A stretch of 36,306 bases of DNA from Deltaproteobacteria bacterium (GTDB lineage: Bacteria; Desulfobacterota; Desulfuromonadia; Desulfuromonadales; JAAYDE01): NCBI GenBank assembly GCA_016926265.1, contig JAFGOW010000230.1, positions 1 to 36,306 of the forward strand, written 5' to 3'. Positions 18,618-36,306 of the stretch are shown piece by piece (position 1 is the stretch's first letter; each line of letters opens with the position of its first letter). The notes under the pieces are model-generated. The model saw only the letters and a program-made list of their open reading frames with translations. It was not told the DNA's origin and ran no database searches. Made by a program: the position numbers and the translations under genes.

Positions 18618-18646
18618 TTGATGTCCTTTTAGAAAAAGTATGATAA
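18618..18646 (+). promoter_or_regulatory. Putative promoter of the XRE regulator
   Basis: TTGATG at 18618-18623 and TGATAA at 18641-18646 are 17 bases apart in an A/T-rich stretch; TATGAT (18639-18644) is an overlapping alternative -10 with a 15-base spacer. It lies about 45 bp before the ATG at 18690. Confidence 0.4.
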
Positions 18647-18689
18647 AAAAACAAACAACGTTTTGTTTTTCCAGCGAGGGGGAACGGAA

Positions 18690-19103
18690 ATGAAAAGCAG
18701 CGTCAAGACCCAGGACGTCAGCTACCAACTCGGGAGAAGGGTAGCCGCTTTGCGGCAAAGCGCCGGCATGTGTCAGGAAGATCTGGCGGCCATTCTGGGC
18801 CTGGGCCAGCCCAGCAGCATCAGCAACCGGGAACAGGGCATCACCGAGTTCACCCCACGGGAGCTGTCGCTGGTAGCCCAACATTTCGGCGTCACCCTCG
18901 ATTATCTGATCCTGGGAAAAGCCGAATCGGAAGATCTTTCCGAGGCGGCGCGGATTGCCCGCCAGATCTTCAACCTGGCCCACCAATGCACCCTCGACCG
19001 GATGACGATGCTGCTCCATCTCGCCCAGACCGCCGCCGAAGCCAGCCGCATGGAATACTCCCGTCCGGCCAAACAGGAACAGAAAACCCCCGAAACAAAC
19101 TGA
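18690..19103 (+). CDS. XRE-family helix-turn-helix regulator
   Basis: A 137-residue protein. Residues about 11-76 form a Cro/CI-type HTH: LGRRVAALRQSAGMCQEDLA, then GQPSSISNREQGITEFTPREL and VAQHFGVTLDYLILG. The C-terminal 60 residues are helical and may mediate dimerisation. GAGGGGG precedes the ATG by about eight bases. It stands alone, convergent with the aldehyde dehydrogenase. XRE regulators with this layout control stress, phage or secondary-metabolism genes; its targets cannot be inferred. No palindrome was obvious at its own promoter. Confidence 0.88.
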   Translation: MKSSVKTQDVSYQLGRRVAALRQSAGMCQEDLAAILGLGQPSSISNREQGITEFTPRELSLVAQHFGVTLDYLILGKAESEDLSEAARIARQIFNLAHQCTLDRMTMLLHLAQTAAEASRMEYSRPAKQEQKTPETN

Positions 19104-33430: not shown

Positions 33431-33468
33431 CCATAACCCATCCGGGGTCTTTTCGAGGATTGGGGCCC

Positions 33469-34164
33469 ATGCAAAAATCGACCTTTACCGTTCCCGTCAT
33501 TTTGGCGCTGCTGTGCTGTTCCTGCGCCCAGATGCCCAGGGAACAACTCCAATTGGCCCGCCAGGCAATGGGCGAGGCCTACACGGCGGGGGCGCCGGAA
33601 CTGGTTCCGGAGGAATACAGAGCCGCTCAGGCAGCGCTACGGGATGCCGAAAACCTGATCCACCACAGGAATTATCGGCTTGCCGGCGAACTTCTCCCCC
33701 TCGCCGCCAGCTACGGCTATCGCGCCGCTTTCCTGGCGAGGGAGAAACGGCTCCAACTCGAAACGGCGACGGCCGCATCGGAAGGCTCCCTGTCAGAAAC
33801 CCCGGAAGGGGTGCGAGCCGCCTCCTCGGGAGCAGATTCCAGACCGGAGAAATCGGTCACAATCGATGCCTCCAGGAAAAAAAATGCCGCCCCCCCCGCG
33901 CCGCCAAACCGCTATGAGGTTAAAAAAGAGGAGTCCCTCTGGTTGATCGCCGGCCTCAAGGAAGTTTACGGCGATGCTTTGCTGTGGCCCATCATCTACA
34001 AGGCCAATCGGGACCAGATCAAAGACCCTCGTCAGGTTTTCCCCGGCCAGGTACTCGCCATTCCCCGATCCGCCACCCCGGAGGACAAGGAAGAAGCCCG
34101 GCGGGAGGCCCGTCAATCGGATATTTTCCTATCGGAGCGCCCCGCCCCCTCTCCCGGGACGTGA
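33469..34164 (+). CDS. LysM-domain lipoprotein
   Basis: A 231-residue envelope protein. The N-terminus MQKSTFTVPVILALLCCSCA is a lipoprotein signal with Cys19 as the probable lipidated residue. A helical region follows (about 25-100, QLQLARQAMGEAYTAGAPEL and EYRAAQAALRDAEN, like DUF4398), then a low-complexity linker and a LysM domain (about 147-200, YEVKKEESLWLIAGL, VYGDALLWPIIYKANRDQI, VFPGQVLAIP) that would bind peptidoglycan. It thus probably tethers the outer membrane to the cell wall. The ATG at 33469 is chosen over TTG 33460 because GAGG is suitably spaced only for the ATG. Confidence 0.88.
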   Translation: MQKSTFTVPVILALLCCSCAQMPREQLQLARQAMGEAYTAGAPELVPEEYRAAQAALRDAENLIHHRNYRLAGELLPLAASYGYRAAFLAREKRLQLETATAASEGSLSETPEGVRAASSGADSRPEKSVTIDASRKKNAAPPAPPNRYEVKKEESLWLIAGLKEVYGDALLWPIIYKANRDQIKDPRQVFPGQVLAIPRSATPEDKEEARREARQSDIFLSERPAPSPGT

Positions 34165-34184
34165 CAAACCCGGCTCTCCATTCT

Positions 34185-34320
34185 TTCTTGTTTAAAAGAC
34201 CATGTTTTATTTTTTAAATAAAAAAGCCTATTTAATTTAATATTTTATAAAATTATTTCATTGTATCATGAAATTTATTGACAAAAATAGAATACCGTTT
34301 TATTTTCATGAATGTTAAGC
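34185..34320 (+). promoter_or_regulatory. AT-rich promoter island upstream of mdh
   Basis: Base composition drops sharply to mostly A/T over about 130 bp in an otherwise GC-rich window. It holds a near-consensus sigma-70 promoter, TTGACA at 34278-34283, 17-base spacer and TATTTT at 34301-34306. Repeated boxes surround it: ATTTCAT 34255-34261 and ATGAAAT 34268-34274 (7-bp palindrome, spacer 6) just upstream of the -35, and TTTCATGA 34304-34311 overlapping the -10, which is the exact reverse complement of 34266-34273. Such boxes look like operator half-sites. The AT-rich flank could act as an UP element. Confidence 0.6.
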
Positions 34321-34696
34321 CCGAACGGCAGAAAGAGGGCCGATTTGTCCTTTTTCCCGTCCTTGGCCTCGCCGCCGGGAAAAAACCTTTCCCCGCATCC
34401 TTTTTTTTAACCAGGCGGCAAAAAACCGGATTTATCGTTACTCGGACAAGGCGCGAGGATTTTAAAAAGCCCTGCCCACTTCAATAGGTCGCTTTAAAAA
34501 AAATCAGCATCGACGTCAGTTATCTTCCAAAATCACGGCGTTTATGCGTCCTGCTTATCGAGCGCCCTTTTCGCCGCGATAACGTTTTGGTAAAAGGAGA
34601 TCTGCCGATGCGGGTCGGTGGATTCCGTCAACCACTGCGGAAAACCACCAGAGAAATGGCCATAAAAAAGATTCCAGTTTTTTTGGAGGGGAGCAG
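34313..34696 (+). other. Long (about 380-nt) leader before mdh
   Basis: No credible gene. A short frame from ATG 34308 to 34487 has no ribosome-binding site and odd composition. The leader ends in GGAGGGGAG just before the mdh start. It may hold a small RNA or structured leader, or a second promoter closer to mdh may exist; I cannot recognise a riboswitch class here. Confidence 0.35.
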
Positions 34697-35662
34697 ATGA
34701 TTAAATTGGGCCGTGCGAAAATAGCCATCATCGGCAGTGGCAATATAGGCGGGATTCTTGCCTTTCACGCCACTTCCCGGAAGCTGGGCGATATCGTTCT
34801 TTATGATGTGGTCGAGGGACGTCCCCAGGGAAAATCCCTGGATATCTCTGCCGCAGCGCGGGAAGACGAGTTCGACCTCCGCATCGTCGGCACCAACGAT
34901 TATGGCGATCTCAAAGATTCCAACATTGTTATCATCACCGCCGGCGCCACCCGGCGACCGGGGATGAGCCGCGACGATCTGGTCTATATCAACACCAAAA
35001 TCATCCGGGATGTTTCGGAGGGGATCAAAAAATACGCCCCCAATTCCTATATCATCGTGGTTTCCAACCCGCTCGATGCCATGGTGACGCTGTGCCAGCG
35101 CTATACCGGTTTTCCCCACCAACGGGTCATGGGAATGGCCGGCGTTCTTGATTCGGCCCGTTTCGCCACTTTCATCGCCTGGGAGCTGGGGATTTCCGTC
35201 CGCGATATCAACGCCACCGTCCTCGGGGGTCACGGCGATTCCATGGTTCCCATCGTTCGTTTCGCCAATGTCAACGGCATCCCGGTCATGGAACTGCTCG
35301 TGCGTAAATACAAAGGGGACAAGATCCACGCCAAAAAGGTCATGGACGGACTGGTCCAGAGGACCCAGAAGGCGGGCGGCGAGGTGGTGAAACTTCTCCA
35401 AGACGGGAGCGCCTATTTTTCTCCGGCCTCCAGCATCCTCACCATGGTCGAAGCCATCATCCAGAATCAGAAACGTCTCATGTCCGCCTCGGCCTATCTG
35501 ACTGGACAATTCGGCGTCTATGGCTATTATGTGGGGGTTCCCTGTATCATCGGAGCGGAAGGGGTGGAACAGATCGTAGAATTCGAAATGACCGAGGAGG
35601 AGAAAGCCATGTTCGACAAATCGGTGGCGGCGGTCAAAAATCTCGTCGGTACGCTGCCCTGA
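34697..35662 (+). CDS. mdh: Malate dehydrogenase
   Basis: A 321-residue LDH-like malate dehydrogenase oxidising malate to oxaloacetate with NAD. Motifs: nucleotide loop IIGSGNIGG (11-19), [15 protein letters not shown] with the substrate-binding Arg residues in the mobile loop, [20 protein letters not shown] and the catalytic His in GGHGDSMVP. Arg in the loop marks malate rather than lactate specificity. GGAGGGGAG lies just before the ATG. It is followed by ferredoxin and alpha subunits of a 2-oxoacid:ferredoxin oxidoreductase, an arrangement familiar from Geobacter, so the TCA cycle steps oxaloacetate formation and 2-oxoglutarate oxidation are co-located. Confidence 0.98.
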
Positions 35663-35742: not shown

Positions 35743-35934
35743 ATGGGCATCCCCCGAATTGAAATAAACGAAAAATACTGCAAAGGATGCAGCATCTGCG
35801 TGGAATTCTGCCCAAAGCAGGTTTTGCTGATGGAGGGTTTCGTGGCCAAGGTCGTCAATCCTGAGGCTTGCATCCAATGCATGCAGTGCGAACTCCGTTG
35901 CCCCGATTTCGCGATCCAGGTTTATCCCGAATAA
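35743..35934 (+). CDS. korD: 2x[4Fe-4S] ferredoxin, delta subunit of 2-oxoacid:ferredoxin oxidoreductase
   Basis: A 63-residue ferredoxin with two complete CxxCxxCxxxC sets: Cys13, 16, 19, 23 and Cys43, 46, 49, 53. The layout (EKYCKGCSICVEFCP ... NPEACIQCMQCELRCPDFAI) is that of the small electron-transfer subunit of KOR/VOR enzymes. It would pass electrons from 2-oxoglutarate oxidation to ferredoxin. CGAGGAG is about 9 bases upstream of ATG 35743. It precedes the alpha subunit by 24 bp. A porD-type subunit of a different 2-oxoacid oxidoreductase is a less likely alternative. Confidence 0.9.
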   Translation: MGIPRIEINEKYCKGCSICVEFCPKQVLLMEGFVAKVVNPEACIQCMQCELRCPDFAIQVYPE

Positions 35935-35958: not shown

Positions 35959-36306
35959 GTGGCCAAAAAATCCGCTTTGATCCAAGGCAACGAAGCCTGC
36001 GCCCATGCGGCACTTTACGCCGGGTGCACCTTTTTCGCCGGCTATCCCATCACCCCCTCTTCGGAAATCGCCGAGGTGCTGTCAAAAGAGCTCCCCAAGA
36101 TCGGCGGCAAATTCATCCAGATGGAAGATGAAATCGGCGCCATGGCCGCCATCATCGGCGCTTCCCTGTGCGGGCACAAGGTCATGGACGCCTCTTCCGG
36201 CCCCGGCATGTCGCTCAAGCAGGAGCTGATCGGCTACGCCTGCATCGCCGAGGTCCCCTGCGTCATCGTCAACGTCATGCGCGGCGGCCCCTCCACCGGC
36301 ATGCCC
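35959..36306 (+). CDS. korA: 2-oxoglutarate:ferredoxin oxidoreductase subunit alpha, 5' part
   Basis: Starting at GTG 35959, 11 bases after GAGGAGG, 116 codons are open to the window edge. The sequence AKKSALIQGNEACAHAALYAGC, then FAGYPITPSSEIAEVL, then QMEDEIGAMAAIIGASLCG and DASSGPGMSLKQE matches the start of the pyrimidine-binding (alpha) subunit of KOR enzymes, where GYPITPSSEIAE and SGPG are hallmarks. The enzyme converts 2-oxoglutarate and CoA to succinyl-CoA with reduced ferredoxin. The gene continues beyond the window; beta and gamma subunits probably follow. A branched-chain 2-oxoacid specificity is not excluded. Confidence 0.93.
   Translation, partial: MAKKSALIQGNEACAHAALYAGCTFFAGYPITPSSEIAEVLSKELPKIGGKFIQMEDEIGAMAAIIGASLCGHKVMDASSGPGMSLKQELIGYACIAEVPCVIVNVMRGGPSTGMP

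Follow-up and report, generated by a model that had tools for sequence, protein, structure and literature searches.

RamB is an XRE-family repressor of acetate and TCA cycle genes in corynebacteria, and BzdR and BoxR are XRE-family repressors of the benzoyl-CoA pathway. Citrate synthase is the classic target of another repressor, HgtR. In Geobacter sulfurreducens, HgtR (GSU3364) is described as a repressor of citrate synthase and energy genes in the available portions of two papers (PMC7726332, PMC7894505), the first of which quotes gltA, atpG and nuoA as targets. An available portion of a third paper gives the promoter of GSU3364 as RpoN-dependent by prediction (PMC2725144). For the lineage studied here, we found no published account of TCA cycle control with operator, repressor and targets, and no TCA terms were found in the main text of PMC545781.

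In our study, a stretch of 36,306 nucleotides of deltaproteobacterial DNA (the window) was analysed around the malate dehydrogenase gene, mdh. The mdh promoter is quite probably controlled by an autorepressed XRE-family repressor of the TCA cycle, which would act through a palindrome and not through the ATTTCAT/ATGAAAT boxes named in a preliminary description of this DNA. That description had proposed that a regulator of central metabolism binds upstream of mdh; the proposal is well supported as regards the regulator, with the palindrome at 34283-34307 as the predicted binding site in place of the boxes. The likeliest regulator, judged from the sequence, is the XRE-family product of a gene that also lies in the window. 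For TCA cycle control in this lineage, an operator and a candidate repressor can thereby be named and a definite set of targets listed.

Promoter and predicted operators of mdh

The window is contig C78 of a genome (G000) of 2.77 Mb in 258 contigs, which is 85% complete. Judged by its gene content, it probably falls within the wider Geobacter/Desulfuromonas group. Its relatives within the family, by mdh identity, were G001 of the same genus (88%), G002 (81%) and G003 (76%). These four family genomes were searched together with 54 further genomes of the order (58 in total).

The region 34185-34313 upstream of mdh contained 16% G+C against 58% for the whole window, which bears out the AT-rich island noted earlier. 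A sigma-70-type promoter was found on the forward strand of this island (34278-34306), with TTGACA at 34278-34283 and TATTTT at 34301-34306 separated by 17 nt. It was the only promoter-like match on the forward strand within 33600-35100, and the near-consensus promoter of the preliminary description is thus confirmed by the promoter search. The 25-bp palindrome AAAAATAGAATACCGTTTTATTTTC at 34283-34307 (consensus palindrome AAAAATARAACANYGTTYTATTTTT) is the predicted main operator of this promoter, O2, and was the best match in the window with a score of 31.6. Its first base is the last one of the -35 hexamer, and from there it runs across the spacer and the -10 hexamer. A weaker upstream copy, O1, was present at 34190-34214, 93 bp from O2; its right half-site was intact and it was the third-best match in the window (score 16.0). 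In G001 and G002, counterparts of O1 were found at upstream distances of 93 and 86 bp, respectively. The mdh-promoter palindromes of G001 and G002 were ATAAATAAAATAGCGTTTTATTTTT and AACAATAGAACGCTGTTTGTTTTTT, respectively; that of G002 is situated after the -10, unlike that of the window. When the three mdh upstream regions were aligned, the conserved blocks were O1 and O2. No palindrome was found at mdh in G003.

The promoter is followed on the forward strand by mdh (34697-35662; TIGR01763, 383.5 bits, cut-off 351.85), by a 4Fe-4S ferredoxin gene that is probably part of the mdh operon (35743-35934; ORF list, Pfam Fer4) and by korA, which encodes the alpha subunit of a 2-oxoacid:ferredoxin oxidoreductase and is cut by the end of the window (35959-36306; ORF list). 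A full-length ortholog of korA in L004 scored 575 bits with NF006412 (cut-off 411).

The boxes themselves were present as ATTTCAT at 34255-34261 and ATGAAAT at 34268-34274. Three matching half-sites had been described; two are exact, whereas the third is TTTTCAT (34303-34309) and has only TTTCAT in common with them. Among 20,000 shuffles of the island, 0.6% contained at least two such 7-mers and 0.3% at least three of the 6-mers, odds that refer to a feature picked after the fact. In G001, neither TTTCAT nor ATGAAA was present in the upstream stretch examined at mdh, and in G002 there was a single, unrelated 6-mer 27 nt before the gene. The boxes are not the important feature of this promoter, because the same-genus relative has none, and the comparison of orthologous promoters did not favour them as a functional element. 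They were rejected as the operator since the three-genome alignment conserves O1 and O2 and not the boxes.

Distribution and strength of the palindrome

The pattern derived from mdh, with up to two mismatches, had 10 matches in the window's own genome and none in its reversed control. Those at mdh and sucC were each counted twice, once per strand; the others were found at two acn loci, nuoE, a porin gene, the xre gene and one place inside an ORF. A relaxed pattern gave 20 matches in the four family genomes (7, 4, 9 and 0), again with none in the control. The palindrome preceded mdh(-fdx-kor), acn, sucC(-sucD-icd), nuoE and xre in each of the three palindrome-bearing genomes. It preceded sdhC in two of the three (G001 and G002); no site was found at sdhC in G000, of which the assembly is 85% complete. 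A lactate-type MFS gene had the site in G000 and G002, and livG and dctP each had it in G000 and G001. Upstream of citrate synthase, nothing scored above 6 by the matrix at the gltA loci of G000 and G001; the best scores at the gltA locus of G002 (8.4 and 7.0) both lay downstream of the gene.

The targets were named with NCBIfam and Pfam as malate dehydrogenase, succinate-CoA ligase beta subunit, aconitate hydratase, NuoE, a protein of the SdhC b558 family, 2-oxoacid:acceptor oxidoreductase alpha subunit, L-lactate MFS transporter and DctP. LivG was below its own family cut-off and is a best-guess name, and the porin, which had no Pfam match, was named by eye. A wider search of the family gave 62 matches against 13 in the control, many of them one-mismatch matches and four of them weak ones in G003. 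The targets given here cover part of these 62 matches and the edges of the regulon are soft; among the matches opened, one in G000 (C139) was inside an ORF, and those in G000 C10 and G002 C50 were without a clear target.

A palindromic matrix was built from 16 sites and examined with each target group omitted once. Fifteen of the 16 sites scored 27.1-37.0 (maximum 42.6) and the lone low score was 13.9, for nuoE of G001. The test matrix consisted of the 11 sucC, acn, sdhC and nuoE sites, with the mdh and xre sites excluded. In the 36-kb window it found 34283-34307 (31.6), followed by 18646-18670 (29.1) and 34190-34214 (16.0); the next score was 10.3. In 355,203 bases of other families, gathered for other purposes, eight places reached 10, one reached 20 and none reached 25. 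One of 5000 island shuffles reached the score of O2. The matrix is only partly independent of mdh, since its sites were first found by the mdh-derived pattern; the reversed-pattern controls and the xre site, which has two mismatches to the first pattern, guard against this bias. A shuffle control was made on loci picked for their sites, and the reversed patterns and the test matrix are relied on in its place.

The position of the palindrome relative to the promoter was similar at mdh, sdhC, acn and nuoE. The palindrome adjoins a -35 element (TTGAC, TTGAA, TTGAT, TTGCG or TTTAC) or shares bases with it, and the right half of the palindrome supplies the -10, with the exception of mdh in G002. 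Second, weaker copies were found at several targets, 86 to about 350 bp upstream; the extra copies were at mdh, at sucC in G001 (score 26.8) and at acn in G000 (C13) and G002.

The two aconitase loci of G000 (L041 and L044, on C13 and C91) were 89% identical over 187 aa. Both contained the palindrome, and their divergent neighbours were of the same type. Either the locus is duplicated or the assembly combines two strains.

The pattern AATAAAAC had matches in 44 of the 58 genomes. It was rejected as an order-wide regulon, as the matches opened outside the family were mostly not at TCA genes. Nearly all of the listed matches were opened; those outside the family were mostly an IclR gene's own site, an XRE-cupin site or scattered places. 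In many other families of the order, the similar palindrome AATAAAACNNYGTATTATTTT directly preceded one IclR-family gene (L079, L084, L087, L091, L106, L107, L113, L116, L128, L130 and L133, about position 1511), where it is probably the regulator's own operator. A T-rich variant containing AATARAAC (such as AATAAAACTATTTTTTATTTT) was present just upstream of an XRE-cupin regulator gene (L055, L075, L077, L090, L120 and L127, about position 1511 or 1146), and a role as an autoregulatory site is likely from its location.

The XRE-family gene of the window

The second-best match of the window, AAAAAACAAACAACGTTTTGTTTTT at 18646-18670 (29.1), is the predicted operator of the xre gene itself, with its centre 32 nt before the ATG. 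The gene (18690-19103, forward strand) encodes an XRE-family protein of 137 aa with a Cro/C1-type helix-turn-helix (HTH), the candidate repressor (Pfam HTH_3, 37.1 bits, cut-off 23; HTH_31, 30.5, cut-off 27). A possible promoter, TTGATG ... TATGATAA (18618-18646, forward strand), which is weak and was recognised by eye, lies directly upstream of this operator. The palindrome was also found upstream of xre in G001 and G002. In G002 it was about 190 nt away from the start codon. The distance was 28-32 nt in G001 and the window, where the palindrome directly follows a -10-like TATGATA. This layout is that of an autorepressor, to which binding by the protein itself would belong.

Outside the window's own genome, orthologs of the XRE protein were found in G001 (77%) and G002 (63%) and in no others, so that 3 of the 277 genomes searched in the class contain it. 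The other matches in the 277 genomes were weak, mostly 26-38% identical, and covered the HTH or a short stretch only. G003 contained neither the xre gene nor the mdh site. The HTH segment GLGQPSSISNREQGIT was invariant across the three orthologs. A structure search gave one match, 4ich, restricted to the HTH part, and none that was close; the single-sequence structure model was poor (pLDDT 62.5).

The mdh leader and the history of the locus

The long leader of the preliminary description was also found, about 384 nt from about 34313 to the mdh ATG at 34697 (34313-34696, forward strand). Leaders of roughly 260-390 nt were present in all three genomes. By Rfam, folding and the three-genome comparison, the leader was devoid of conserved sequence or structure. 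The Rfam search of the leader gave no match, its fold had a z-score of -0.64 and was equalled by 23 of 100 shuffled sequences, and the three leaders had only matches of 9-15 nt in common. The regulatory RNA that had been suggested for this leader is accordingly not supported, and a cis-regulatory RNA was rejected since neither a known family nor a conserved structure was found. The window contained an ORF of 30 codons with a good ribosome site at 34610-34699, of which the TGA overlaps the ATG of mdh (ATGA); it was rejected as a leader peptide because it is not conserved in G001 or G002. Positions 34445-34470 of the leader matched positions 1501-1526 of L002 (26 bases, 96%), a different place in the genome, where they are part of an inverted-repeat element that has ends of the GTTGAAAA type. 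The mdh leader may hold a decayed repeat of this kind.

In relatives of the order, the icd locus has the order aspS, LysM lipoprotein, promoter, icd and mdh. The lipoprotein gene of the window (33460-34164) matched the lipoprotein that precedes icd in the relatives (34% over 229 aa), and icd was found beside sucC, on the same strand and downstream of the palindrome, in G000 (C131) and G002 (C48). Because of this synteny and the present position of icd, the leader occupies the place that icd has in the order relatives.

The GntR/FCD system of the order

A different motif, TTGTATACTGTATACA, was present with at most one mismatch in 46 of the 58 genomes, and the reversed control had no match in any genome. 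It was found before icd, before mdh and beside a gene of the GntR/FCD family. In these other families it is situated downstream of TTGACA, with TATACT as the -10. Orthologs of the GntR protein (E up to 1e-40) were found in 44 of the 58 genomes. The four family genomes contained neither the motif nor the ortholog at these thresholds; weak GntR homologs (36% and 29%) were present in the window's family. All 44 genomes with the ortholog contained the motif; among the 14 without it, 12 had no site and two (G010 and G030) had one (Fisher p 1e-10, with relatedness ignored). Families f4 (5/5 genomes) and f2 (3/4) were also without both the ortholog and the motif.

Forty TTGTATACTGTATACA regions were opened among the matches listed, several of them without a clear target. 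Opened sites also preceded genes for citrate synthase, an ATP synthase b/b'-type subunit, the ATP synthase gene-1 protein, NuoA, pyruvate carboxylase and glyQ; one example of each target was checked against families and the rest were read by eye. Loci L185-L188 and L246-L275 show this combination of a GntR/FCD regulator and TTGTATACTGTATACA sites, the latter at icd/mdh, at nuoA and at the genes for citrate synthase and ATP synthase. In three of these targets, namely citrate synthase, the ATP synthase b/b'-type subunit and NuoA, the system matches the HgtR targets quoted in the available portion of the literature. We found no paper on the GntR/FCD-TTGTATACTGTATACA system, which, likened by its targets, is a candidate for the HgtR-like control of the order outside Geobacter.

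Discussion

On the basis of the three genomes with both the gene and the sites, the XRE protein would bind the 25-bp palindrome AAAAATARAACANYGTTYTATTTTT, presumably as a homodimer. The palindrome extends from the -35 through the -10, and therefore a bound dimer would cover the core promoter at mdh, acn, sdhC and nuoE and keep RNA polymerase out. The palindromes of xre and of the G002 mdh lie directly behind the -10, over the presumed start. The second upstream copies may serve cooperative or looped binding, and an activator role is possible where a copy lies upstream of the -35. In such a scheme, the XRE protein would limit its own synthesis and coordinate mdh-kor, acn, sucCD-icd, sdhC, nuoE and some uptake genes. 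The TCA cycle would probably be lowered under an excess of carbon or reducing power.

The palindrome could instead be a genuine TCA operator of another protein (TetR, IclR or similar), with xre merely one of its targets. Regulators of regulators are common, and the shape of a palindrome alone cannot name the protein family, because similar A/T-flanked palindromes outside the family precede an IclR gene and an XRE-cupin gene. However, xre was the only regulator gene with the site in all three genomes and its presence or absence tracks the sites, which makes this explanation an unlikely one. It is very improbable that control lies in the leader, as a regulatory RNA or as a translationally coupled peptide at 34610-34699. 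A leader of about 260-390 nt is kept in all three genomes, and in the window the 30-codon ORF, which has a good ribosome site, terminates at the mdh ATG, but the fold is matched by 23 of 100 shuffles, Rfam has nothing similar and the ORF has no counterpart in G001 or G002.

Still less can be said for the ATTTCAT/ATGAAAT boxes as the site of a separate regulator, as the preliminary description had them. Their symmetric placement upstream of the -35 and the rarity of three half-sites in the shuffled island (0.3%) are set against the absence of the 6-mer from the G001 stretch examined before mdh, its single unrelated copy in G002 and an alignment that is conserved at O1/O2 and not at the boxes; we give this reading hardly any credence. 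The binding of the Geobacter HgtR, or of an ortholog, to the mdh site, which the preliminary description had raised, was the least probable of all. HgtR acts on the same pathway, as a repressor of citrate synthase and energy genes in the portions available (PMC7726332, PMC7894505), but citrate synthase in the window's family is without an upstream site, and HgtR was rejected on its targets for this reason. Furthermore, TTGTATACTGTATACA, the motif with HgtR-matching targets, is absent from the four family genomes, where its GntR protein has only the weak homologs. We keep the XRE protein as the candidate repressor at the palindrome.

The palindrome, placed before mdh, other TCA cycle genes and xre, points to a lineage-specific on/off switch of central metabolism, for which the relatives use a different protein. 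We would give an even chance to the reading that TCA control has passed between unrelated regulators within the order. Most families would run it through the GntR/FCD-TTGTATACTGTATACA system, and the window's family would have lost both parts and placed an overlapping set of genes (mdh, kor and icd, plus acn, sucCD, sdhC and nuoE) under a family-restricted XRE repressor and a new palindrome. The same even chance, taken jointly, covers the move of icd from the mdh operon to the sucCD operon, where an operator of the regulon still precedes it. The window's family may have lost the GntR system or may never have had it, since families f4 and f2 are mostly without it too. Such an exchange would be a natural experiment in which a central-metabolism regulon was kept coherent while its regulator and operator were exchanged, with both versions readable side by side in sister families.

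RamB, BzdR/BoxR and the XRE protein are all Cro/C1-type HTH regulators of carbon metabolism genes, the last by prediction. The XRE protein is much shorter (137 aa) and has a different operator. It is also devoid of the kinase-like domain of BzdR and is not BzdR-like (PRK08154), with 25.5 bits for NF006015 against a cut-off of 204.

The HgtR regulon and the predicted XRE regulon are alike in that a repressor lowers, or would lower, the genes of central carbon and energy metabolism as a group. The HgtR targets in the available portion of the source are gltA, atpG and nuoA, whereas the XRE regulon contains mdh-kor, acn, sucCD-icd, sdhC and nuoE, and its citrate synthase is without a site. The promoter of the HgtR gene is predicted to be RpoN-dependent (PMC2725144, available portion); that of xre is a weak, sigma-70-like one, immediately next to the xre operator.

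The GntR/FCD system differs from the XRE system in its unrelated protein family and operator and in its absence from the window's family. Its targets also include citrate synthase, ATP synthase and nuoA. The two are alike in their arrangement, with a site beside the regulator's own gene and sites on the icd/mdh promoters, overlapping the promoter.
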